NCBI GenBank assembly: GCA_951799405.1
Contig: OX637333.1
Location: forward strand, 17,545,960-17,609,959
Source: Agapetus fuscipes
Taxonomy: Eukaryota > Arthropoda > Insecta > Trichoptera > Glossosomatidae
DNA: 64,000 nt
Reading direction: 5' to 3'
Part shown: one piece after another, positions 5,036 through 62,582 of the stretch
How positions within the stretch are numbered: the stretch's first letter is position 1
Layout: each line of letters starts with the position of its first letter
The notes under the pieces: generated by a model
What the model saw: the letters and a program-made list of their open reading frames with translations, nothing else
Database searches by the model: none
What the model was told of the DNA's origin: nothing
Made by a program: the position numbers and the translations under genes

Positions 5036-5756
5036 TGTCTTATTAACAAATTGTTGATTGCAAAAAATAATATTTATTTAAAACGTAACATGGAAAATAT
5101 TCACTGCGAAAATGTTGCGTATCACTTGCTGACCTAATTCAAAGTAGTAGAGAGTGTTTTTTATAGCTCAAAGCCAGCGCGGTATAGGGCTGCTTTCGGC
5201 GAGCTCCTGAGAGTGAATGGAAGAAAAGAGGAAAGGCATGCAATTTAAAGCCATTTGTAAAATAATAAAATAAATAGATCTTATGAAAAATAAAATTTGA
5301 AAAAAATTACAAGTAAACTTAAGATTCTATTTTTTAATATTTGAAAATTATTGGTCACAAAAAACGATTTTGTGAGATTTTATTTGGAGATACAATACAC
5401 ACTTTTTTTTAAGTTTTTGCTTCTAGATTTTTTGTTTTATTCCAGTTTTCTTAATCTCAATCAAACTTAAAATCACACTACAAACTAAAACAGGATATTA
5501 AGACCCCATAGAGCGAATACGTCCAAAACGGTGTTCTGGGTTTTAAATGTCCATTATGTTAACTTTTTTTTTTTAATCTGTTACTGTCAGAATAAAATAA
5601 AGAAATGTATACTTTACAGATTGACCGTTTCCAAAAATGATAAAAGTTATTTGAATTCTGTCAAAATGTACACAAACTTATGAAATATTACGAAATAATG
5701 CTATCTGGGTTCAATGAATAACTTGAATTTTATGAATGAAAGTATACAAAAAATAT
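5036..5756. other. slit intron, nothing recognised
   Basis: AT-rich spacer between a family D copy and the left LTR of the gypsy element. No ORF or repeat structure of note. Confidence 0.5.
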
Positions 5757-6275
5757 TGTTACGAAATTAGGGTTCAATTGTCTTTCCAAATTAAAAAATA
5801 CACAGGTCTTCTTCAATAGTTATTTATTTTACACAGTTACAAAATTTATTTTCACACTACTTTCTCGATTATTCCACTTGGTTTTGGTTCACTGATCAGA
5901 TGACTTCGATGTGTTTGTAAGTCTCTATGATACTGGCCGCTCTGCAGGCCATTTGCACCCTTTATACTCTTTAGAGCAGTATAATCTAGACCTATAGTTG
6001 CTAGAAGGTTCCAGAGTAATTATTACTTCTCGATGTTTCACGTACTACCTAGACACAACCAAAATCCTACCTACCAATGCAATACAGTATTCCTATAATT
6101 ATAACAAATACCTACTTAGCCTAGAGAATTCTACACTTATACATAATTATCGATCTTACCTACCAATACTTTTGAGGATTCTTATAACTATAATTATCCA
6201 TACTTATTTCAATATTTATATTTACATAACACTATAACTACCCATACTTATTTCAATATTTATATTTACATAACA
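5757..6275 (-). repeat. 3' LTR of the gypsy element
   Basis: 519 bp bounded by TGTTA and TAACA. It contains a tandem duplication of 44 bp (6198-6241 and 6242-6278) that spans the LTR/internal border, so the original LTR end may be TAACA at 6227-6231. TTTATACTCT near 5960 is a TATA-like box on the plus strand only, so the promoter itself is not resolved. Confidence 0.9.
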
Positions 6276-6290
6276 CTACCCCCCACCTAG
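6276..6290 (-). promoter_or_regulatory. polypurine tract
   Basis: On the minus strand AGGTGGGGGGTAG directly precedes the TGTTATG start of the 3' LTR. This is the expected place of the plus-strand primer. The tract also encodes the last residues of pol (GGG) and its TAG stop, so coding sequence runs right up to the LTR. Confidence 0.8.
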
Positions 6291-9200
6291 ACTGTTTCGT
6301 CCCGGAACAGTCTTGACTCTGTGTAGGTAGGGGCATGCTGATCCACGTCGACACCCTGTGGTCAGGAAGAAGTGGCAGTCCACGGATTTCTCCCCACTGG
6401 CTCTCGGCTGCGCTTGCTCGCAGCACACCATGACGCTGATGCCGACTCCCGAGAACACTGCTTCAATCATACTCCGGATTATCCGCCAGTCTCGATTAGC
6501 GCGGCCGCCACCCATCTTCGGTATTGCCAGACGCGCCTGCTGATCCTCCAACATGTAGTCACGCAGCTCAACAAGGCCGTCCCACAATGCCTTGTAGTCC
6601 TCTTCCAGGTTGCTGGAATCCGGGACAACCAGGCAGTATGCTTGTTGACGCCCCTTCGGTAGTCTCAGAGCTCTTCCTTGCGGGCTGCTCGAGGGTTGCG
6701 GTTCTCCGAATTTGTATCGGAAGACCCGTGCAATTCCTCTAGACATATCTAGATCTTCCGGTACACTGCATGCCAGTGTGTGGTCCCTAGTGACCTCAAA
6801 TAAGTCCTTGTGGACTTCTGTGGTCACTCCATGGCGAAACTTCTGCCCTGCCTTCGCGTTCTCCCAAAACGTCTCAAAGGCTGGTGATCTTTCGGATGCG
6901 ACGCACTGTCGTACTTTTTGGGCTGGTTGGTCATCATTATCGCCTAGGTATGGTGAGAGGCGATTGTAGTGCACGACCCTTGGTTTTCCGTTTGGTCTCT
7001 TTTTTATGCGGTAGACCACATCGTTGATGCGCTCCAAGATCTCGTACGGCCCGTCCCAGGAACGCTGAAGTTTCGGACAGTATCCTTGGCGCCTCTTGGG
7101 GTCAAAAAGCCACACCCAGTCACCAGCTTTGTACCCCATGCTGTCAGCTCTGGTGTCATAGCGCTCCTTCATTTGATCGCTGGCTTCCCCGATGTTCATG
7201 CGGACCTGATCATGGATGTCATCCAGCCTCCTGCGAAGGTCTGTCACATAGTCTTCTCCGGCTAGGTCTTCACCTGGTTTGCAGCCAAATTTGAGATCAC
7301 AAGGAAGTCGCATTTCTCGCCCAAACAGTATGCTGCTGGGAGTCTTCTTCGTCGTTTCCTGAACAGCCGACCGGTAAGCCAATAAGAACAAAGGCAGATG
7401 TCGGTCCCAGTCCCGCTGATGGCTGGACACTACTTTGGCTAAGTACCTCCCCACGGTACGGTTCATCCTTTCCACCATTCCATCAGACTGTGGATGTAGC
7501 GCAGTGGTCCTGGTCTTGTAGATCCCTAGCCGCTCACACATTTGCTGGAAGATAGCAGCTTCAAAGTTCCTTCCCTGATCAGAATGTAATTCCAGGGGTA
7601 CGCCAAACCTGCTGATAAATTCGGTAACTAGAACTTCAGTCACGGTTACGGCCTCTTGGTTAGGGATTGAGTAAGCTTCCACCCACTTGCTGAAGTAATC
7701 CATCACCACCATGATGTACTTGTTACCCTTCTCAGTTGTAGGAAATGGGCCGGCTATGTCGATGGCAATTCTTTCAAAGGGGCTGCCAACATTGTACTGA
7801 CGCATTGGTGCTCGCCTTTTCCTTTGCGGTCCATTGGCCGTTGCACAGGTTACACATTTTCGACACCAATCTTTGACGTCTTCGCTGCAGTTGATCCAGT
7901 AAAATCGCTCTTTCACTTTCTCCAGCGTCTTCTTAACGCCTAGATGTCCTCCAGAAGTTCCTCCATGCAGCAGTCCAAGGATTTCCGGTACTCGGCTCCT
8001 CGGAACGAGGGTTTGCTTTCTTCTAAGTGTGCCGTCTTCCTTCTCGATCTTTCGTTTCAGAAGCCCTCCTTCTATCACTATGGATCCCCATTGAGCCCAA
8101 TAAGCCTTGACAGTTGGTGATAAGGGGGCGAGTTTTTCCCAGGTTGGCCTTTCTCTTTCTCGCGCCCATTCCATCACATACTTCAAGTCCGGATCATTCA
8201 GTTGGTCTTGCGCCAATTTGTCATCTTGCCAGTCCTCATCTTCGGTGGTCGTCCTTTGGACAATTGCTACCTTGTCCTCCATCCTGCTGCAATGTTTGCA
8301 GTCACTGGCGCATGGTCGTCTGGATAATGCATCCGCATTTCGATGAAGCGTGCCAGGTCTATGTTCGGAGTCATAATCATACTCCTGGAGCCTTTCAATC
8401 CATCTAGCCACTTGCCCTTCTGGGTTTTTGAATTTCAGAAGCCAAACCAGTGCAGCATGATCAGTCCGTAGTGTGAATTTTCTCCCGTACAAGTATTTGC
8501 GGAAGTGTTCCACTGATTTTATCACGGCAAGAAGCTCTCGTCTGGTCACGCAATAATTTCGTTCTGGCTTGGAAAGCACTTTACTGAAGTAACCCAGAAC
8601 AGTCTCATGCCCATCCTGTATTTGGGAAAGGACACCTCCTATCCCCACATTACTAGCGTCGGTATCCAGGATGAACTTTCCATCTTTTCGTGGGTAGCTC
8701 AAGATGGGGGCACTTGTTAATCTTCCCTTAAGCTCTTCAAATGCTTGTGCGCAGGAATCACTCCAATGGAAGCGAGTGTTTTCTTCCGTAAGCTTGGTGA
8801 GCGGTTTTGCAATGTCCGCAAATCTTGGCACAAACCTCCTGTAATAAGTGCACAGCCCCAGGAAGCTCCTAGTTTCATGTTTGTCCTTCAGCACGGGCCA
8901 GTCTCTTACTGCCTTGATTTTGGCAGGGTCAACTTCAACTCCACGTTGAGAAACTATGTGTCCCAGGTAATTTACTTGTTTCTTGAACAGGTTACACTTT
9001 TTCGGGTTGAGCTTCAGTCCAGCGTCTTGTAGTCGCCCGAAAACTTGCTCCAGATTTCTCAACTGATGGTTGAAGTCCTTTCCCAGGATGATTATGTCAT
9101 CCAAGTATACAAGGCAGGTTTCCCATGACAGTCCTCGCAGCACATTCTCCATCAGCCTTTCAAACGTGGCGGGGGCATTGCATAAGCCAAATGGCATCAC

Positions 9201-10538
9201 GGTGAACTGCCAAAGTCCAGATCCAGTCGAGAATGCCGTTTTCTCCTTATCTTTGGCATCCAATTCAACTTGCCAGTAGCCACTTTTCAGGTCCAATGTG
9301 GAAAAAATGGTGCATCCTGCCAATGTGTCCAAGGTGTCGTCAATCCTTGGCAGAGGGTAACTATCCTTTTTCGTAACATCGTTGAGCAGTCTGTAGTCCA
9401 CACAAAATCTCGTGGTACCATCCTTCTTTTTCACCAGTACCACCGGGGATGTCCAAGGGCTACTTGATGGTTCTATGATGCCATCCTTGCTCATGTCTTT
9501 GATGATCTTGTCGGCTTCTTCCCGCTTTGCAAAGGGTAGTCTTCTTGGAGCCTGTTTGATTGGTCTTGCTTCTCCGGTGTCTATGCTATGTCGCACTACC
9601 TTGGTTCTTCCCAGACGGCCATTAGAGTCCTCGAAAATGTTCTGGTAGCGGCAGATCAAACTCCTCACTCTAAGTCTGTTTTCCTCGGTTAGACCTTGGG
9701 AAGCGTCGTGGACCAGGGTTTCCAATTGTGTCGATAATTTTCTTCCCTCGCATGTCATGTTTGTCATCTGTTGCACAATGGAAGTTATCCTCTCACATCT
9801 GCCCAAAACAAAACCTTCATTCATTTTAACTGGGTAGCTGTTCACATTCATGATCTTGACAGGAATGGTCTCCTGCGCGCGAATCACTGTTCTTGCCACC
9901 ATGACTCCTTTGTTAACATTGTCCATGTTCTCCGGTTCTATCATACAGATTTGGTCATTTGTACTACTGGAATCCAGGCGGGCACTCACTATCATCTCGG
10001 ATCGCCCCTTCACTTCGGTATTCTTGGCTAGGATCACACGTGCAGCCAGTTCTTTCCGTCTTTGCAGGATGACTTCTTCATTTTCAATTTTAATGGCACC
10101 TTTTTTTAAATTTAAGCTGCACCCAAATCTGTCCAGTATGTCCATTCCCAATATAACGTCTTCTTCAATGTTGGCCACCAACGTCCGATGATCAAAAGTG
10201 GTGCTGCCAATTTGGAAGGTGGCAATCGTCTCCCCATACACCTGTGCTGACTCTCCCGTGGCGGTGTGCAGAGACCACTTTGTTGGTGCAATCTGCTTAC
10301 CTCGTGCCACTATGTCGCGTCTCAGAATTGTCCTGGTTGCTCCCGTGTCCACCAGTAGTTCACGGGTTACTCCATCTATTATGCCATTGATAAAAATGCT
10401 GCTGGCTTTTCCTCTCACAGTTGCGACAGTAGCAGCAGATTTCAGGGCCTCTCCAGCGCGGGTCAACGGTTGCCCCTTCCCATTAACCCTTTCTAGTTTT
10501 CCGCAGCCTGTTTTCTGGGTTTCTGAGGCTTGGGACAC
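6276..10538 (-). CDS. pol: gypsy Pol: PR-RT-RNaseH-IN plus macrodomain and CCCH finger
   Basis: 1420 residues from the frame opening. Aspartic protease has DTG at 64-66. Reverse transcriptase has YLDD at 478-481. RNase H starts at LDTDAS (~624). The integrase zinc finger is H858, H865, C895, C898; its catalytic triad is D927, D987 and E1023 (D-x35-E). Beyond integrase there are about 200 extra residues. Residues ~1237-1372 look like a TARG1/Poa1p-type macrodomain: KDLFEV, LACSVPEDLDMSRGIARVF, then LAIPKMGGG..DW. Residues 1388-1406 form a C-x7-C-x5-C-x3-H finger. The two TARG1 catalytic positions (Lys and Asp) look replaced, so ADP-ribose binding without hydrolysis is more likely than catalysis. 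The frame lies -1 relative to gag with a 46-bp overlap. The start is set by the open frame, so it is not a true initiation site. Confidence 0.95.
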   Translation of the reverse strand: MSQASETQKTGCGKLERVNGKGQPLTRAGEALKSAATVATVRGKASSIFINGIIDGVTRELLVDTGATRTILRRDIVARGKQIAPTKWSLHTATGESAQVYGETIATFQIGSTTFDHRTLVANIEEDVILGMDILDRFGCSLNLKKGAIKIENEEVILQRRKELAARVILAKNTEVKGRSEMIVSARLDSSSTNDQICMIEPENMDNVNKGVMVARTVIRAQETIPVKIMNVNSYPVKMNEGFVLGRCERITSIVQQMTNMTCEGRKLSTQLETLVHDASQGLTEENRLRVRSLICRYQNIFEDSNGRLGRTKVVRHSIDTGEARPIKQAPRRLPFAKREEADKIIKDMSKDGIIEPSSSPWTSPVVLVKKKDGTTRFCVDYRLLNDVTKKDSYPLPRIDDTLDTLAGCTIFSTLDLKSGYWQVELDAKDKEKTAFSTGSGLWQFTVMPFGLCNAPATFERLMENVLRGLSWETCLVYLDDIIILGKDFNHQLRNLEQVFGRLQDAGLKLNPKKCNLFKKQVNYLGHIVSQRGVEVDPAKIKAVRDWPVLKDKHETRSFLGLCTYYRRFVPRFADIAKPLTKLTEENTRFHWSDSCAQAFEELKGRLTSAPILSYPRKDGKFILDTDASNVGIGGVLSQIQDGHETVLGYFSKVLSKPERNYCVTRRELLAVIKSVEHFRKYLYGRKFTLRTDHAALVWLLKFKNPEGQVARWIERLQEYDYDSEHRPGTLHRNADALSRRPCASDCKHCSRMEDKVAIVQRTTTEDEDWQDDKLAQDQLNDPDLKYVMEWARERERPTWEKLAPLSPTVKAYWAQWGSIVIEGGLLKRKIEKEDGTLRRKQTLVPRSRVPEILGLLHGGTSGGHLGVKKTLEKVKERFYWINCSEDVKDWCRKCVTCATANGPQRKRRAPMRQYNVGSPFERIAIDIAGPFPTTEKGNKYIMVVMDYFSKWVEAYSIPNQEAVTVTEVLVTEFISRFGVPLELHSDQGRNFEAAIFQQMCERLGIYKTRTTALHPQSDGMVERMNRTVGRYLAKVVSSHQRDWDRHLPLFLLAYRSAVQETTKKTPSSILFGREMRLPCDLKFGCKPGEDLAGEDYVTDLRRRLDDIHDQVRMNIGEASDQMKERYDTRADSMGYKAGDWVWLFDPKRRQGYCPKLQRSWDGPYEILERINDVVYRIKKRPNGKPRVVHYNRLSPYLGDNDDQPAQKVRQCVASERSPAFETFWENAKAGQKFRHGVTTEVHKDLFEVTRDHTLACSVPEDLDMSRGIARVFRYKFGEPQPSSSPQGRALRLPKGRQQAYCLVVPDSSNLEEDYKALWDGLVELRDYMLEDQQARLAIPKMGGGRANRDWRIIRSMIEAVFSGVGISVMVCCEQAQPRASGEKSVDCHFFLTTGCRRGSACPYLHRVKTVPGRNSLGGG

Positions 10539-11842
10539 TTGGTGCTAAGGTGGCCCAGCTGTCCGCAGTTCCAGCAGCGTGGGTCTCGTCTTCGAGGTCT
10601 CAGACGTTCCAGCACTTTTTCAATTAGCTCCTCGGTTGTAGGTAGCTTGACCTCCTCTGCCTCGACTGCACGAACCCTGGCGTGGCCCCTGATGGACTGT
10701 TTGACAGCCTCAAACTCGAGAGCTTGGCTGAGCGCCTCGTTCAAAGCCTTGGGATGGGCCAGTTTTACGGCTTGTTGCGTCTCCCATTCCCGCAATCCAT
10801 TTAGGAACTTGTCCACTGCCAAGCTCTCACAGATGTCGTCGGAGGCTGTCGGGTAAGCGTCTCGTACCAGGCGGGCGATGTCCATTTCAAACTCCTGGAG
10901 GCTCTCGTTGGGCTTCTGCACCCTTGTGTTCAGCTGCGACTTGTACAGCTGCTCCAGGCACTTGTGGCCATAGCGCATATCCAAGCGCTGCTTCAGCTGC
11001 CCAAAGTCACCACGGTTGTCCAGGGGTATGGCCTGCAGAACCCTGAGAGCGTCTCCTCGGAGCGACAGGCTGAGAACCGAAGCCTTCTTCTGCTGGCTCC
11101 AGGCTCCCATCATGGCAGCCGTCTCAAAGAGGGTCAAGTATTCCTCCCACGACGTCTTCCCGTCGAAGGTTGGGAGGTTGTGCTTGGCTAGGGAAGGGTC
11201 ATCATCCCCTCTTGTGATCCTGGTTGGAGTTGAGCATCCCTGGTCGGTCTCGTCGTGAAGGCCGCCTTTGGGGGAGATTCTGGTGGACTCCATCTGGCAC
11301 TTGTCAGCCAGCTCGGCACGCAGACGGTCTTCCAGGTTTGACATCCGAGTCTCCATTTCCCCCTTCAGGGCCGAGAGGTTGGTTGTCATCTTCTCCTCTA
11401 TTTCTCCTTTCAGGGTTGTGAGACTATCCGCTATCTCCGCCTTCAGGGTCCTGGCGTTGTCAGCCATCTCCGCCTTCAGGTCTTCCCTCAGGGTCTTGGA
11501 ATTGTCAGCCATTTTCTCCTCCAGGGTCCTGGCGTTGTCAGCCATCTTCTCCTCCAGCCCGGTCAGGTCCTCCTTCAGGGTCTTGGCGTTGTCAGCCATC
11601 TCAGTCTTCAGTCCTGTCAGGTTACTGTTGATGCTGATATTTAGCTCGTCCAAGGCGCGGTCCCCTCCAGACGCCATGACAAAATATGCCGGGTCTTCGC
11701 CTGACTGTTCTAAGGCCTCCATGAGGCGTGCCTGTAAGGCCGCCTTCCCTCCTGAGGTCTCCAGGTCCCTCTCCAGAAGCTCATTTTTAAGCTCAGTGAC
11801 TTTGAGGTCCTTGATGTTCACTTTGGTTGCCATTTTTTTCAA
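10493..11842 (-). CDS. gag: gypsy Gag with N-terminal SAP-like domain
   Basis: 449 residues. Residues ~12-45 fit a SAP motif (LKVTELKNELLERDL..GGKAALQARL), a short helix-loop-helix DNA-binding fold. About 75-185 is a coiled coil made of repeated 8-13-residue units with the core MADN-TL. Then comes a Ty3-type gag/capsid region with LPTFDGKTSWEEYL and ALRVLQAIP. A CCHC zinc knuckle (CWNCGQLGHLSTKC) lies near residue 428. The ORF starts at an ATG preceded by a 645-nt leader and ends TAG at 10493. Gag forms the particle and packages element RNA; the SAP domain might tether it to chromatin (inference). Confidence 0.93.
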   Translation of the reverse strand: MKKMATKVNIKDLKVTELKNELLERDLETSGGKAALQARLMEALEQSGEDPAYFVMASGGDRALDELNISINSNLTGLKTEMADNAKTLKEDLTGLEEKMADNARTLEEKMADNSKTLREDLKAEMADNARTLKAEIADSLTTLKGEIEEKMTTNLSALKGEMETRMSNLEDRLRAELADKCQMESTRISPKGGLHDETDQGCSTPTRITRGDDDPSLAKHNLPTFDGKTSWEEYLTLFETAAMMGAWSQQKKASVLSLSLRGDALRVLQAIPLDNRGDFGQLKQRLDMRYGHKCLEQLYKSQLNTRVQKPNESLQEFEMDIARLVRDAYPTASDDICESLAVDKFLNGLREWETQQAVKLAHPKALNEALSQALEFEAVKQSIRGHARVRAVEAEEVKLPTTEELIEKVLERLRPRRRDPRCWNCGQLGHLSTKCPKPQKPRKQAAEN

Positions 11843-12487
11843 AATTTACTTCAAAACGAAAATATTTTTAAATTTATTTAATACACGTTTTGAGTTTTAT
11901 ATATATAGCTGTTTTGAATACGTACTTTAGCAAAATAATAATTTATCTGATTACACTGATTGGTAGGTACTGTCTTTTAATATTTATTTTTAATTCACCA
12001 ATATTTTTAACATAATAATGTCTGATAGTACATAATTATTTATTTCGTCTCAAGTCTTTCAAACACACAGGTAGGTACTTAATGTACATTCACACGCTTG
12101 TAAACAAAGGATAGTTATTCAAAAACTTTTTCTCGATGAATCTGGAACGTTCTTTTGTAATATTTTTCAAGATTTTTATTTATTTATTTTATTTTTTTAA
12201 TCACACACAATAATAAAAAAACTATGGTCCAATTTGATGACTTTCTCAATGCGGTAAAATAGTCATTATGTTATGTCCAGAATTATGTCCAGAATTATGT
12301 TCCATATGATGTTCCAGAATTTATAAGCAACTTGCTTTTGCGTCTTTTCTTTTAACAAAAATTTATTTAAACACTTGTTTTCACAAAAGTCAGTTCACAC
12401 AAAGTTCAATTTGAATAAAGTTCATTTTAACACTATTTAATTTATTTTATTTATTTTTAGACAGAAGATCTTAATTTTTCTTGACAA
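11843..12487 (-). other. gypsy 5' leader
   Basis: AT-rich untranslated leader between the primer-binding site and gag. It has a tandem repeat of ATTATGTCCAGA near 12273-12300 and no ORF of note. Confidence 0.7.
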
Positions 12488-12504
12488 CCCCACACCTGAC
12501 ACCA
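12488..12504 (-). promoter_or_regulatory. primer-binding site, probably tRNA-Leu
   Basis: Two bases inside the 5' LTR the minus strand reads TGGTGTCAGGTGTGGGG. It starts with the TGG complementary to a tRNA CCA end. tRNA-Leu 3' ends of the type CCCACTCCTGACACCA would pair with one mismatch; this match rests on remembered tRNA sequences. Confidence 0.65.
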
Positions 12505-12506
12505 AT

Positions 12507-12881
12507 TGTTACGAAATTAGGGTTCAATTGTCTTTCCAAATTAAAAAATACACAGGTCTTCTTCAATAGTTATTTATTTTACACAGTTACAAAATTTATT
12601 TTCACACTACTTTCTCGATTATTCCACTTGGTTTTGGTTCACTGATCAGATGACTTCGATGTGTTTGTAAGTCTCTATGATACTGGCCGCTCTGCAGGCC
12701 ATTTGCACCCTTTATACTCTTTAGAGCAGTATAATCTAGACCTATAGTTGCTAGAAGGTTCCAGAGTAATTATTACTTCTCGATGTTTCACGTACTACCT
12801 AGACACAACCAAAATCCTACCTACCAATGCAATACAGTATTCCTATAATTATAACAAATACCTACTTAGCCTAGAGAATTC
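12507..12881 (-). repeat. 5' LTR of the gypsy element, truncated
   Basis: 375 bp identical to 5757-6131. It then stops inside GAATTC, where the 3' LTR continues for another 144 bp. The missing part is the first third of U3. Confidence 0.92.
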
Positions 12882-20982: not shown

Positions 20983-23843
20983 TTAATCAACAAGTACAAA
21001 GTAAGACCTGGCAGCTGGATGAAATATTTTTTTTATCAAAGTCCTGAATGAAGAGAGATCCAAATCAAATATGTCAATATCCGACAAATATTCATTGCCC
21101 AGTCGATGTAAGCGGGGAATTATTGTCGATCTTATATAATTTGTTTTGTGGTTGTCTATATAGAACAACTCGCGATTTCTAGTACATCGTGTAGGTATAC
21201 GGAATTTTATGAGCTGCAACAAATCAGGGTTGTCAAAACAATTATTTATAATTTTAAACAAAAAAGTTAAATCCCCAATAATTCTTCTGTCCTCAAGAGA
21301 TTCAATGTGTAATCTTATTTTCAAATTTTCGTAATCTAAATCATGTCGAGGTATACCCAATTTGTAATTTATGAACCTTAAAAATTTATGTTGAATCCGC
21401 TCCATATTGTTGAAATGGACATTGTAACTGGGAGACCATATTTGGGAATTGAACTCCAGCTGACTACGGACTAATGACTTATAAAGTATTGCAATTGCGT
21501 TTACATTTGTGAAATCGCCAACAGTGCGAAGGACAAAGCCCAATGTTTGCAATGCTTTTCCGGTCATTTTTGTTATGTGGCTCACAAAAGATAATTTCTC
21601 ATCAAAGATAATCCCAAGATCTCTTATTTCCGTTACCCTGTCCAGTTTGTCATTTTCGATACAGTGGTTGAAGTGCATGGGATTTTGGTTTCGAGAAAAA
21701 GTTATACATTGACATTTTTCAACATTTAAGAATAATTTATTTCTGTGACACCAACTGCCCAGTTCATTTAAATTGTTCTGAAGTATATAGCAGTCACCTA
21801 CATGTTCTATTCTTTTGAATATTTTGAGATCATCAGCAAAAAACAAACATTCTACATCCCTCATCTCGCCAGCCAGATCATTAATATAAATGAGGAAAAG
21901 TATTGGTGCAAGATGGCTCCCTTGCGGCAAGCCGCTTGTTGCCTCAAAACTATTTGAAATGGTATCCTTTATCTTAACTCGCAACAATCGCCCCGATAAG
22001 TAGCTTCTAAACCATTCTAGCAGAGCACCCGTCAATCCTAAAACGGATAGCTTATTAAGAAGGATGCTATGAGGCACCTTGTCGAATGCCTTGCTGAAGT
22101 CCGTATATATGCTGTCCATTTGACATCCATGTGCAAGACTTTCGGCTATAGCATTTTCATAAATAGCTAGATTTGACAGAGTTGACCTGCCCGAAATAAA
22201 TCCATGTTGTTGAGGCTCAATGATACGAGATATAGAAGGCATAATTTGTTCCAGCACAAGAGACTCAAATAGTTTCGCCATAGAGGATTGAAGGCATATT
22301 GGTCTGTAGTTTGAGATATCCGTTTTGTCACCTTTCTTGAAAACTGGTGTGATATTGCCAATCTTCCACACAGATGGAAAAACTGCGTTTTGTAAAGATT
22401 TGTTAAAAATTATCAGAAGAGGGATAATAAGAGCATCGGCACATCTTCTCAAAAAAATTGGTGGTACATTATCGGGGCCGCATGATTTCTTTACATCAAG
22501 TTGGAATAATTTAATTTCTAATTTTGTTATTGGAATATGACATTGAGACAGGTCAATCATTTTATTACCAACACGACAGGGATCAGTCACATTAGGCAAA
22601 TTGTCTACATAAACATTACTAAAGTAATCAGCAAATTTGTTAACAATGTTGTTTACTTCACTTACACGTTCATGATCTAGAAACATCTGTACTGGGTAAT
22701 CATTATCACTATTGGACAATGACTTTTTAAATTTCCATAAACTTTTAGCGTCGGTCGTTGTATTCTCTGCTATTTTTATATAATTGGTATAACATACCAC
22801 CTTTAATGTATTGCACTTGGTTCTTAGGTTTCTAAACGCATTGTAATGCTTAATATTAGATGATTCTTTGTAAGTTCTGTGTGCCGCCTTCTTCTCCTGG
22901 ATCATCTCAATGAGTTCACGTGAGAACCATATAGGATATGTGCTAGCTCTGTATTTCTCATGTGGTATAAATTTATTTATAGTATCGTATAGAATGCCAT
23001 AAAACACAGCGATCACATATTCAATGTCCTCATTTTGTAGAAATGACCAGTCGCATTTGAAAAGAAAGTCAATCGCACTATCATAGTCCCCCTTGTTATA
23101 GTTGAATGAGAAGGTTTCCCTACTGTTACATTTTGTAGTTTTCAGAAATATATTAACATGTAATGGAGGATGATGAGTGTCAACTGGTACTAATTCATCA
23201 TTGGATAGATCTACAAATAAATTATCAATGTTAGAAAAAACTAGATCGAGAAGGCGATTTCTAGAATTGCAGATAAAGTTTCGCTGAGTTAATCCCAGAA
23301 AAATAGTTGATTCTATTAGTTCTCTGGCGCCTTCATTGTTATCTTCATTAACTGGAAATGTGCCTATATTTGGTGACCATTTGACTCTGGGTAAGTTGAA
23401 GTCTCCAAACAATAGGAAACTGGCTGTTGGGTGTTTGCTCTGTATTCTCTCTACCTCTTCACAATACACTTTGTAACATTCTGATGGTGATGCTGGTGGG
23501 ATATAAACGTTCCCAATTATGATTTGATAATGATGTACTTTAATTAAGACAAACAATTGTTCAATGCTATTATTATGGATCCTGATCGATATGGATGAAA
23601 TATTCTTTTTCACTGCAATTAAAACTCCTCCTCCCCTCTCCTTTCTGCTCGTGATTTGGTTCCGATCGCATCTATACATATTGTATGCAGAGAAGGACAA
23701 TTCAGACGATTTAATTGTGCTATCAAGCCATGTTTCTGTTAATACATAAATACAATGATTCAAAACTGGTATGTTTTGACGTAATGTTGTTAATTTAGAT
23801 CTTACACCTCTTATATTTTGAGAATAAATGCTGATATTATTTA
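20983..23843 (-). CDS. LINE ORF2: AP endonuclease and reverse transcriptase
   Basis: The frame is open from just after the ORF1 stop: ISIYSQNIRGVRSKL is the first strand of the endonuclease, so no N-terminal leader exists. Endonuclease landmarks are TETWLDS, RGGGVLIAV, IIGNVYIPP, LFGDFNLP and DTHHPPL. RT landmarks are NYRPICLQS, YTDFSKAFDKV, GLPQGSHLAPILF and FFADDLK. The C-terminal region continues to FVLVD at 20983. No ATG occurs near the start, which fits production as an ORF1-ORF2 fusion by -1 frameshifting. The ORF has no stops and could be functional. Confidence 0.92.
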
Positions 23844-24536
23844 GTTTTTTTTGATGTCCCGGGCTATCATTGGTGTTCCGTTAACAAACCTGATTACAAG
23901 ATCAGTTTCTCCCTTTTTTCTTCTGCTCTCCAACTCATCCCATGTCTCTTTTAGGATAGCTCTTTGCATCTGTGTGAGGTCCTGTTTAACTCGGATATGC
24001 TTAGGAAGCCGAAACCTGCTAAAAAAGATCGTTCTTGCGTCTTCACTGTCATTTAAAGTTATCTTGACAGGTCTTGCTTTATCCTTCTGCCTGATACCAA
24101 GTCGTTGTATTCTTGCTATAGGTATGTTGCTCAAAGATTCAATGCCATGGATTATTTTTCTTGTCTGATCTAAATCTTCAGTATTCTGTTCACGTCCAGG
24201 AAGATCTGCGCTCACCTCTGGAACGTTGAAAATTAATATGTTTTTCGAACGTGAATCTCTTTCTGCCAGTTCAGCTAAAGTGTTGCATACTTCCGCCGTC
24301 TTGCCCGATGAGCCAGTGATTTCAAGATGAGCTAACCTTTCTTTAAGATGTCTAATTTCTGCTTCTTGACTGGCGATCTTGGCTGTAGCAGTACTCATTG
24401 CGGCCATGAATTCAATTGAAATAGGAGTAACTTTTCCAATAAGATCTCTAGTGAATTTTCCATTGTCAGTCATGAGCTGGGATAGGACACAAGCAGCGTT
24501 TTTCACCATAGTAATTATCTCCTGTGCATCCATCAC
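23841..24536 (-). CDS. LINE ORF1: coiled-coil/RRM RNA-binding protein
   Basis: 231 residues from ATG at 24536. Roughly residues 45-75 form a coiled coil (IASQEAEIRHLKERLAHLE). It is followed by an RRM-type region with RSKNILIFNVPE, ARIQRLGIR and ARPVKITLNDSEDA. A C-terminal domain has IRVKQDLTQMQRAILKETWDELESRR and GETDLVIRFVNGTPMI. This is the ORF1p plan of RNA-chaperone proteins in many LINEs. The stop TAA follows a run of eight A. Confidence 0.88.
   Translation of the reverse strand: MMDAQEIITMVKNAACVLSQLMTDNGKFTRDLIGKVTPISIEFMAAMSTATAKIASQEAEIRHLKERLAHLEITGSSGKTAEVCNTLAELAERDSRSKNILIFNVPEVSADLPGREQNTEDLDQTRKIIHGIESLSNIPIARIQRLGIRQKDKARPVKITLNDSEDARTIFFSRFRLPKHIRVKQDLTQMQRAILKETWDELESRRKKGETDLVIRFVNGTPMIARDIKKN
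23844..23850 (-). promoter_or_regulatory. -1 ribosomal frameshift site A AAA AAC
   Basis: In the ORF1 frame the end reads ATC AAA AAA AAC TAA. The heptamer A AAA AAC is in the correct X XXY YYZ register; slipping back one base skips the stop and enters ORF2 exactly in frame (CTA AAT AAT). The same heptamer works at the MMTV gag-pro junction. Confidence 0.75.
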
Positions 24537-32000: not shown

Positions 32001-32398
32001 TGTTACGAATTTAGGGTTCAAAAGTCTTTCAATTAAAAATACTGGTCTTCTTATACAGTTGTTTATTTTACACTTTTAATAATTTATTTTCACAAAGGTG
32101 GTCTCGACTATTACATTACACTTTTTTTGTTTACTGGTTTTGGTTCAATGTATGTAGTTGTAACGCTCGTAGAACACTGGCTCTGCAAGCCACTCGCACC
32201 CTTCTTATACTCTTCAAAACAGTAGAATCTAGACCTATATTCGCTAGACAGTTCCAGAAAGGCGTAGTAATCATTATTTCTCGATGCTTCACATATTTTT
32301 ATTCAATGATTCCTACCCACACAATATAATACAGAATTCCTATAACTATTACTAATACCTACTTATTTTAAATATTTATATTTCATATTTACATAACA
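32001..32398 (-). repeat. solo LTR related to the gypsy element
   Basis: Starts TGTTACGAATTTAGGGTTCA and ends TTACATAACA, matching the LTR at 5757 along its length with divergence. Flanked by a perfect ATAC duplication (31997-32000, 32399-32402). Orientation is taken from the similarity to the minus-strand element. Confidence 0.85.
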
Positions 32399-45904: not shown

Positions 45905-47958
45905 ACTAAATAATGACAATGGACATGCTGTCGGTGGACATTATGTCGGGGGAACATTTTGTCCATGGACATTGTATCGGTGGACATTATGTCGGTGGGA
46001 CATATGTCGGTGGGCATTCTTTCCGTGGACATTCTGTCGGTGGACATTCTGTCGGTTGACATTATGTCGGGTGAACATTTTGTCCATGGACATTGTATCG
46101 TTGGACATTATGTCGGTGGCACATATGTCGGTGGGCATTCTTTCCGTGGACATTCTGTCGGTGGACATTCTGTCGGTTGACATTCTGCCGGTGGACATTT
46201 TGTCGGGGAACATGTTTGTCCGTGGACATTGTATCGGTGGACATTGTGTCGATGGACATTCTATCGGGTAGACATTTTGCCCGTGGACATTGTATCGGTG
46301 GACATTTTGTCGCGTGGACATTGCATCGGAGGACATTATGTCGGTGGACATTTCGTCGCGTGGACATTGTATCGGTGGACATTATGTCGGTGGACATTTT
46401 GTCAGGTGAACATTCTGTCGGGTGAACATTTTGTCCGTGGACATTGTATCAGTGGACATTATGTCGGTGGGACATATGTCAGTGGACATTCTTTCCGTGG
46501 ACATTTTGTGGGTGGACATTTTGTCGCGTGGACATTATGTCGGTGGGACATTATGTCAGTGGACATTCTTTCCGTGAATATTCTGTCGATAGACATTCTG
46601 TCGGTTGACATTCTGCCGGTGGACATTTTGTCGGGGGCCATGTTTGTCGGGGGCCATGTTTGTCCGTGGACATTGTATCGGTGGACATTGTGTTGGTGGA
46701 CATTTTGTCGGGTGGACATTCTGTCGGGTGAACATTTTGTCCGTGGACATTGTATCGGTGGACATTATGTCGGTGAGACATATGTCAGTGGACATTCTTT
46801 CCGTGGACATTTTGTGGGTGTAGTCGGAGGACATGTTTGTCCGTGGATATTGTATCGGTGGACATTGTGTCGGTGGACATTCTGTCGGGTGGACATTTTG
46901 TCCGTGGACATTGTATCGGTGGACATTATGTCGGTGAGACATATGTCAGTGGACATTCTTTCCGTGGACATTTTGTGGGTGGACATTTTGTCGGGGGACA
47001 TGTTTGTCCGTGGATATTGTATCGGTGGACATTGTGTCGGTGGACATTCTGTCGGGTGGACATTTTGTCCGTGGACATTGTATTTGTTTGGTATTTGGTA
47101 TTTGCATTGGTGGGCATTATGTCGGTGGACATTTTGTCGCGGGGACATTCTGTCGTGTGAACATTTTGTCCGTGGACATTGTATCGGTGGACATTATGTC
47201 GGTGGACATTTTGTCGGGTGGACATTCTGTCGGGTGAACATTTTGTCCGTGGGCATTGTATCGGTGCACATTATGTCGGTGGACATTTTGTTGCGTGGAC
47301 ATTTTGTCGCGTGGACATTTTTTCACGTGGACATTTTGTCCGTGGACATTGTGTCGATGCACATTCTGTTGGTTGACATTCTGTCGGGGGACATTTTGTC
47401 GGTGGACATTTTGTCGGGTGGAAATTTTATCAGGGGGACATTTTGTCGCGAGGACATTGTATCGGTGGACATTATGTCGGTGGACATTTTGTCGGGTGGA
47501 CATTCTGTCGGGTGAACATTTTGTCCGTGGGCATTGTATCGGTGCACATTATGTCGGTGGACATTTTGTTGCGTGGACATTTTGTCGCGTGGACATTTTT
47601 TCACGTGGACATTTTGTCCGTGGACATTGTGTCGATGCACATTCTGTTGGTTGACATTCTGTCGGGGGACATTTTGTCGGTGGACATTTTGTCGGGTGGA
47701 AATTTTATCAGGGGGACATTTTGTCCGTGTACATTATGACGGTGGACATTTTGTCGCGTGGACATTTCGTGGCGTGGACATTTTGTCACGTGGACATTTC
47801 GTCCGTGAACATTATGTCGATGGACATTCTGTTGGTGGACATTCTGTCGGTGGACATTTTGTCGGTGGACATTTGGTCGGGTGGAAATTTTGTCGGGGGG
47901 ACATTTTGTCCGTGTACATTATGTCGGTGGACATTCTATCAATGTACATTTTATCGTC
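45905..47958. repeat. 2-kb minisatellite, 15-16-bp unit
   Basis: About 130 units of GGACATTTTGTCGGT with variants (ATTCTGTCGGTGG, ATTGTATCGGTGG, CATATGTCGGTGG). Units combine into higher-order blocks, for example a 121-bp block at 45957/46078 and a 278-bp block at 47178/47456 that is almost identical. Long open frames on both strands (up to 428 codons, VDILSG-type repeats) are by-products of the repeat. Confidence 0.92.
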
Positions 47959-62266: not shown

Positions 62267-62582
62267 TGTTACGATTTTAGGGTTCAAAAGTCTTTCAATT
62301 AATAACACTAGTCTTCTTTTAAAATTATTTATTTTACACTTTTAAAATTCATCTTCACAAAGATAGTCTCGATTATTCCATTACACTTGGTTTCTGTTCA
62401 CTGGTCAAGTTGGTTCAATGTATTTGTAAAGCTGGCAGGAGACTGACTCTGCAAGCGACTTGCATCCTTTTTTTACTCTTCAAAACAGTACTATCTAGAA
62501 CTATATTCACTAGACAGTTCCAGATTCAAGTAGGTACGTGGTAATCATTATTTCTAGATGCTTCAAGTATTTTATTCAATTA
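62267..62582 (-). repeat. gypsy-family LTR, truncated
   Basis: TGTTACGATTTTAGGGTTCA at the start, preceded by ATAC. It is close to the solo LTR at 32001 and ends abruptly after TATTTTATTCAATT, where another element begins (CTAGCTGACCCGGCAG). Confidence 0.75.

Follow-up and report, generated by a model that had tools for sequence, protein, structure and literature searches.

The stretch of Agapetus fuscipes DNA analysed here, 64,000 nucleotides in length and referred to below as the window, carries on its minus strand a Ty3/gypsy retrotransposon (window positions 5757-12881) whose Pol polyprotein continues past the integrase into a tail with two further domains: a macrodomain of the TARG1 class (6417..6827; tail residues 38-174) and a CCCH zinc finger of the form C-x7-C-x5-C-x3-H (6321..6377). 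The initial annotation of this DNA had proposed a TARG1/Poa1p-type macrodomain and a CCCH finger behind the integrase, and had tied the proposal beforehand to a profile or structural match to macrodomains. Such a match was found in both sequence and fold comparisons. The window macrodomain matches TARG1 by sequence with an E-value of 7.7e-11, a profile of nine sequences from the lineage described below matches TARG1 at 2.1e-44, and the confidently predicted structure has a macrodomain fold with TARG1 as its nearest structure. The Pfam Macro profile alone misses the window macrodomain. The finger, with all four ligand positions intact, is recognised by PF00642 (E-value 2.1e-4, 21.6 bits against a cut-off of 20.5). 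The proposed arrangement is upheld.

The rest of the element, like the tail, reads from the minus strand. The assignment to Ty3/gypsy rests on the Pol order reverse transcriptase (RT)-RNase H-integrase and on the presence of long terminal repeats (LTRs), a likely primer binding site and gag. The gag open reading frame (ORF) at 10493..11833 has Pfam matches to SAP (E-value 2.8e-8), zf-CCHC (1.6e-5) and Retrotrans_gag (3.4e-5); the SAP domain lies at the start of gag, and two relatives from Aromia moschata (P0025 and P0026) have one listed as well. The pol ORF (6276..10538) encodes 1420 amino acids without interruption and, by arithmetic on the ORF coordinates, overlaps gag in the -1 frame. It comprises reverse transcriptase and RNase H (8139..9752; RVT_1, E-value 1.1e-37; RT_RNaseH_2, 5.6e-35) and integrase (6939..8138; H2C2 zinc domain, 1.4e-18; rve core, 6.1e-16; p58/SH3-like C-terminal domain, 6.2e-13), and a protease-like motif, LVDTGATRT, can be read in Pol by eye. 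No chromodomain was detected in the integrase or tail of the window element by Pfam at E-values up to 1, which sets it apart from the chromoviruses.

The 3' LTR (5757..6275) is 519 bp long, runs from TGTTA to TAACA with ends judged by eye, and directly abuts the pol stop codon, whilst the 5' LTR (12507..12881) measures about 375 bp, some 144 bp less. Positions 5755-6131 and 12505-12881 are 100% identical across 377 bp, implying a recent insertion. The ~144 bp absent from the 5' LTR correspond to U3, and the sequence AATAT, which stands at each outer end or immediately beside it, is a possible target-site duplication; the element may have integrated with its 5' LTR already shortened. Read from the sequence, a likely primer binding site (TGGTGTCAGGTGTGGGG; 12488..12504) sits 2 nt internal to the 5' LTR. 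The likely polypurine tract, a purine-rich run (GGTGGGGGGTAG; 6276..6287), coincides with the terminal part of pol, stop codon included. Two LTR-like stretches found elsewhere in the window, at 32002-32387 and 62268-62524, share about 74% identity with portions of the element LTR and are probably older related remnants.

A protein search with the window tail returned a single distant relative among 378 candidates, and a second search one near-copy among 97. The lineage became visible only when the tail of the first relative, labelled Erysiphe, was itself used as the query, giving 52 proteins among 328 candidates. These include pol proteins, two Erysiphe pulchra records, many gene models from the beetles Molorchus minor (Cerambycidae) and Aromia moschata, and macrodomain proteins for which the listing shows no pol domain. 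P0002 and P0032, the Erysiphe pulchra records, place two elements in the assembly of a powdery mildew, although the lineage is otherwise associated with insects; either contamination or horizontal transfer would explain this. The sequence P0003, carried on a 996-bp contig from another source, is 99% identical to the window sequence with two differing tail residues. Among viral contigs, P0002 as query gave no match and the macrodomain alignment a single distant locus; bacterial and archaeal genomes yielded six TARG1-like loci.

The domain set comprised 56 rows, including the window, P0003 and human TARG1. Removal of 21 near-duplicates left 35 (TARG1 among them), and three truncated or damaged Molorchus rows (P0033, P0034 and P0045) were excluded before any counts or trees were made. 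The remaining 32 rows consist of 15 pol proteins (the window included), 12 macrodomain proteins with no pol domain listed (P0039 and 11 proteins of named insects), TARG1 and four others, namely the two domains of P0031, P0044 and P0054. Only part of pol is covered by two of the pol rows, the gene models P0007 (Molorchus) and P0024 (Aromia). For the group of 12, a domain scan of five proteins (P0036, P0037, P0038, P0042 and a near-duplicate of P0050) found no pol domains.

The search for other integrase-macrodomain fusions thus yielded a lineage of 15 pol rows in which the tail is kept at the protein level: all have the macrodomain and 13 have the CCCH motif (C-x7/8-C-x5-C-x3-H), a motif present in none of 13 macrodomain proteins without pol domains (the 12 and P0031). 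An FxxFM stretch upstream of the macrodomain is found in 12 of the 15; the window has FETFW at this point, and P0032 and P0035 lack the stretch. The 15 Pol macrodomains form one clade (support 100/99), as do the 13 that remain without two long-branch rows, P0001 and P0022. Trees of integrase and macrodomain for the 13 elements with complete integrase contain the same close groups, with the deeper branches unresolved. The single macrodomain clade and these shared groups indicate that the tail descends with the element, and a single capture followed by such descent is the simplest account of the main lineage that its sequences offer.

As to the donor, the insect macrodomain proteins (Tribolium LOC661444, Tenebrio, Anoplophora, aphid LOC100166845 and others) have the same TARG1-class domain as the element but no CCCH motif and no pol domains in the search listing, nor any in the five scanned. 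The best match of each element macrodomain among them is 34-51% identical (15 members), and for 13 of the 15 it is a beetle protein. In the tree without the two long-branch rows, which was also used for the approximately unbiased (AU) tests and for the 81/66 and 80/71 supports given below, the pol clade shares a branch with beetle macrodomain proteins (97/91); with those rows included, support is weak (67/79). Human and bacterial relatives of the domain exist as well, and from this branching the donor was probably an insect TARG1-like gene.

The catalytic dyad of TARG1 consists of Lys84 and Asp125 (PMC9411070, PMC7050489; the latter writes Glu125). Residues were mapped by the numbering of solved structures (4j5r spans residues 12-152), which identifies Lys84 as the lysine of YLITK and rules out that of VAVLK. 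Among the 15 pol macrodomains, Lys84 is present in 14, Asp125 in 13, His32 in 14, and Asp20 and Gly43 in all; Lys84, Asp125 and His32 are all present in each of the 12 macrodomain proteins that have no listed pol domains. In the window copy, the His32 codon (6768..6770) encodes Cys (His in 14/14 other pols), the Lys84 codon (6621..6623) Pro (Lys in 14/14) and the Asp125 codon (6498..6500) Ala (Asp in 13/14). The catalytic Lys and Asp positions are therefore altered in this copy, as had been suspected, and judged by its Lys84/Asp125 positions it does not count as an active TARG1 hydrolase. It retains Asp20, Gly43-Ile44-Ala45, Gly121 and Gly123. In macrodomains the glycine loops and the Asp20 position generally hold the phosphates and adenine. 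P0003 carries the same pocket changes, which are thus probably not private to the window copy.

With the dyad kept in most members, TARG1-type chemistry is the prediction for the lineage. The suggestion of the initial annotation that binding is more likely than hydrolysis therefore fits the window copy but does not extend to the lineage. A domain that has lost Lys84 and Asp125 may still be active: Streptomyces SCO6735 lacks both yet acts on ADP-ribosylated DNA and protein (PMC9411070). By sequence, the Lys84/Asp125 route is not available to the window copy, leaving binding, decay or other chemistry. The last of these, in which the altered domain would still be a hydrolase through other residues as in SCO6735, strikes us as very improbable: SCO6735 has an essential glutamine at the Lys84 position (PMC9411070), where the window has proline.

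What might such a module do for the element? That it is an ADP-ribose eraser carried behind integrase, and acquired in a single capture of an insect TARG1-like gene, is a proposal for which we see the case as evenly balanced. Starting from the fusion, homology, predicted fold, conservation and residue pattern observed here, we infer delivery, substrate, timing and benefit as follows. The macrodomain-finger module would be made within Gag-Pol and be delivered either together with integrase or after its cleavage from Pol, the CCCH finger holding element RNA or DNA. In most members the macrodomain would then act as TARG1 does and strip mono-ADP-ribose off integrase, histones in the vicinity or the ends of DNA, either as host PARPs react to the gaps of integration or on the element's own nucleic acid. 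PARP2 was reportedly found at LINE-1 integration sites by Miyoshi and colleagues in 2019. The substrates described for TARG1 are acyl-ADP-ribose esters, modified proteins and ADP-ribose-phosphoesters at nucleic-acid ends (PMC7050489). The window copy, with its catalytic residues gone and its predicted fold and glycine loops kept, would bind ADP-ribose without cleavage or be losing its function.

Three observations weigh against the eraser proposal. The active-site loops are altered in two of the 15 members, the window and P0022 (in P0022, Asp125 is replaced by Asn and the loop carries a deletion), so that hydrolysis cannot be a requirement in every member; the finger is absent from two of the 15 pols (P0032 and P0035); and across the 66 pairs without the window, mean identity is 54.9% for the macrodomain against 74.9% for integrase, which is compatible with weaker constraint. 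The macrodomain could instead serve as a targeting reader: in the manner of a chromodomain, it would attach to chromatin bearing ADP-ribose, or to PARP at breaks, and hold integrase at such sites, with hydrolysis beside the point. Its position behind integrase parallels that of the extra domains in chromodomain and Tudor gypsy elements (PMC12477816), and the pattern of retained and lost pocket residues in the window copy is that of a binder. A full catalytic dyad would, however, be superfluous in a pure reader, and most members have one; we regard this explanation as rather unlikely.

Differences in rate bear on another possibility, that the module no longer matters in the window sublineage and its pocket is drifting, with other relatives still using it. 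The macrodomain evolves faster than integrase throughout the lineage and, by branch arithmetic, about twice as fast again in the window: the window end branch is 1.68-1.95 for the macrodomain (median 0.39) against 0.29 for integrase (median 0.14), and mean identity over the 12 window pairs is 39.4% and 71.8%, respectively. The window has lost 13 of 42 near-invariant columns and P0022 13 of 47, compared with 0 to 7 of 42 to 49 in the remaining 13 pols. These losses and the long window branch would fit decay, as would the same altered pocket in the 99% identical P0003. Against this, the frame is open and the predicted fold confident despite long divergence, and the finger keeps its four ligand positions. 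In a rough calculation, a neutral window branch (1.67 changes per site) would be expected to introduce about 13 stop codons into the macrodomain; none is seen (P about 2e-6). The window copy has thus kept its frame and its predicted fold but not its catalytic site, and we consider a decaying passenger unlikely.

Two further gypsy Pols bear on how often capture has occurred. In P0054, a TARG1-class macrodomain with the dyad lies behind integrase (residues 1195-1332) with no CCCH finger; the RT and integrase of this protein are 54% and 45% identical to those of the window element. Its macrodomain groups with those of aphid macrodomain proteins (88/85, or 81/66 without the long-branch rows) and is probably an independent capture. 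In P0044 (Rhynchophorus ferrugineus LOC143201674, an NCBI gene model; RT 42% identical to the window) the TARG1-class macrodomain, with Lys84 and Asp125 kept, occupies residues 601-742, between RNase H and the integrase H2C2 domain, and possibly belongs with the main clade (80/71). A single clade of the main lineage, P0054 and P0044 is rejected (AU p 0.012), whilst one of the main lineage and P0054 alone is not rejected at the 5% level (AU p 0.068). The trees make it likely, without proving it, that captures number two or three. That Ty3/gypsy elements have repeatedly, two or three times, taken TARG1-type ADP-ribose erasers into Pol, and that reversing host ADP-ribosylation is a recurrent need of retrotransposition in insects, we advance tentatively and would not ourselves favour at present. 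If true, the repeated captures would be a means by which retroelements oppose either restriction by PARPs or what PARPs do where integration takes place.

The best match to the domain in both sequence and structure is human TARG1 (OARD1, C6orf130; ALC1-like class), whose Lys84, Asp125, His32 and Asp20 are kept in most of the lineage. TARG1 is a stand-alone host enzyme, whereas the element's domain forms the C-terminus of a retrotransposon Pol, mostly with a CCCH finger, and in the window copy lacks the dyad. The NADAR fold is unrelated to the macrodomain. Known gypsy Pol fusions include chromodomains and, in one alga, a Tudor domain, both at the integrase C-terminus, and also NADAR (PMC12477816). 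Chromoviruses and Ectocarpus Gypsy-10 (Tudor) resemble the window element in having an extra domain behind integrase, but theirs is a histone reader in place of a macrodomain (PMC12477816). Ectocarpus Gypsy and oyster Tx1 LINEs with NADAR share with it an ADP-ribose-related domain on a retrotransposon, although the NADAR of Gypsy lies in the N-terminal region of Pol and has a suggested bacterial origin (PMC12477816). Fish epsilon-like endogenous retroviruses also bear macrodomains (Basta et al. 2009, as cited in PMC4977317); there, however, they are described as additional ORFs in vertebrate retroviruses (PMC4977317). Orchid gypsy elements, for their part, carry an ORF for an AlkB-type RNA demethylase (PMC9289625). 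A full-text literature search, with subscription journals and Repbase outside its coverage, listed no title or abstract opening that names a gypsy element with a Pol macrodomain, and passages of PMC8195603 and PMC12859917 are not concerned with macrodomains in Pol. Extra domains in gypsy Pol are already known; the apparent novelty lies in the class of macrodomain, in the conservation of its dyad and in the probably repeated capture.

Elsewhere in the window, an open non-LTR retrotransposon at 20983-24536 has a 926-amino acid ORF that matches RVT_1 and, weakly, an endonuclease (26.7 bits, slightly below the cut-off of 27.4); a 231-amino acid ORF with no Pfam match precedes it. A 2-kb minisatellite at 45920-47956, with the 15-bp unit TGGACATTTTGTCGG, contains ORFs of more than 100 codons on either strand.

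Antiviral defence, the repair of DNA breaks and the control of retrotransposons all have links to PARPs and ADP-ribosylation, against which RNA viruses deploy macrodomains. A gypsy lineage with a host-derived ADP-ribose eraser tied to integrase, together with the naturally altered copy found here, would make it possible to ask directly whether integration requires retroelements to overcome ADP-ribosylation or to exploit it.
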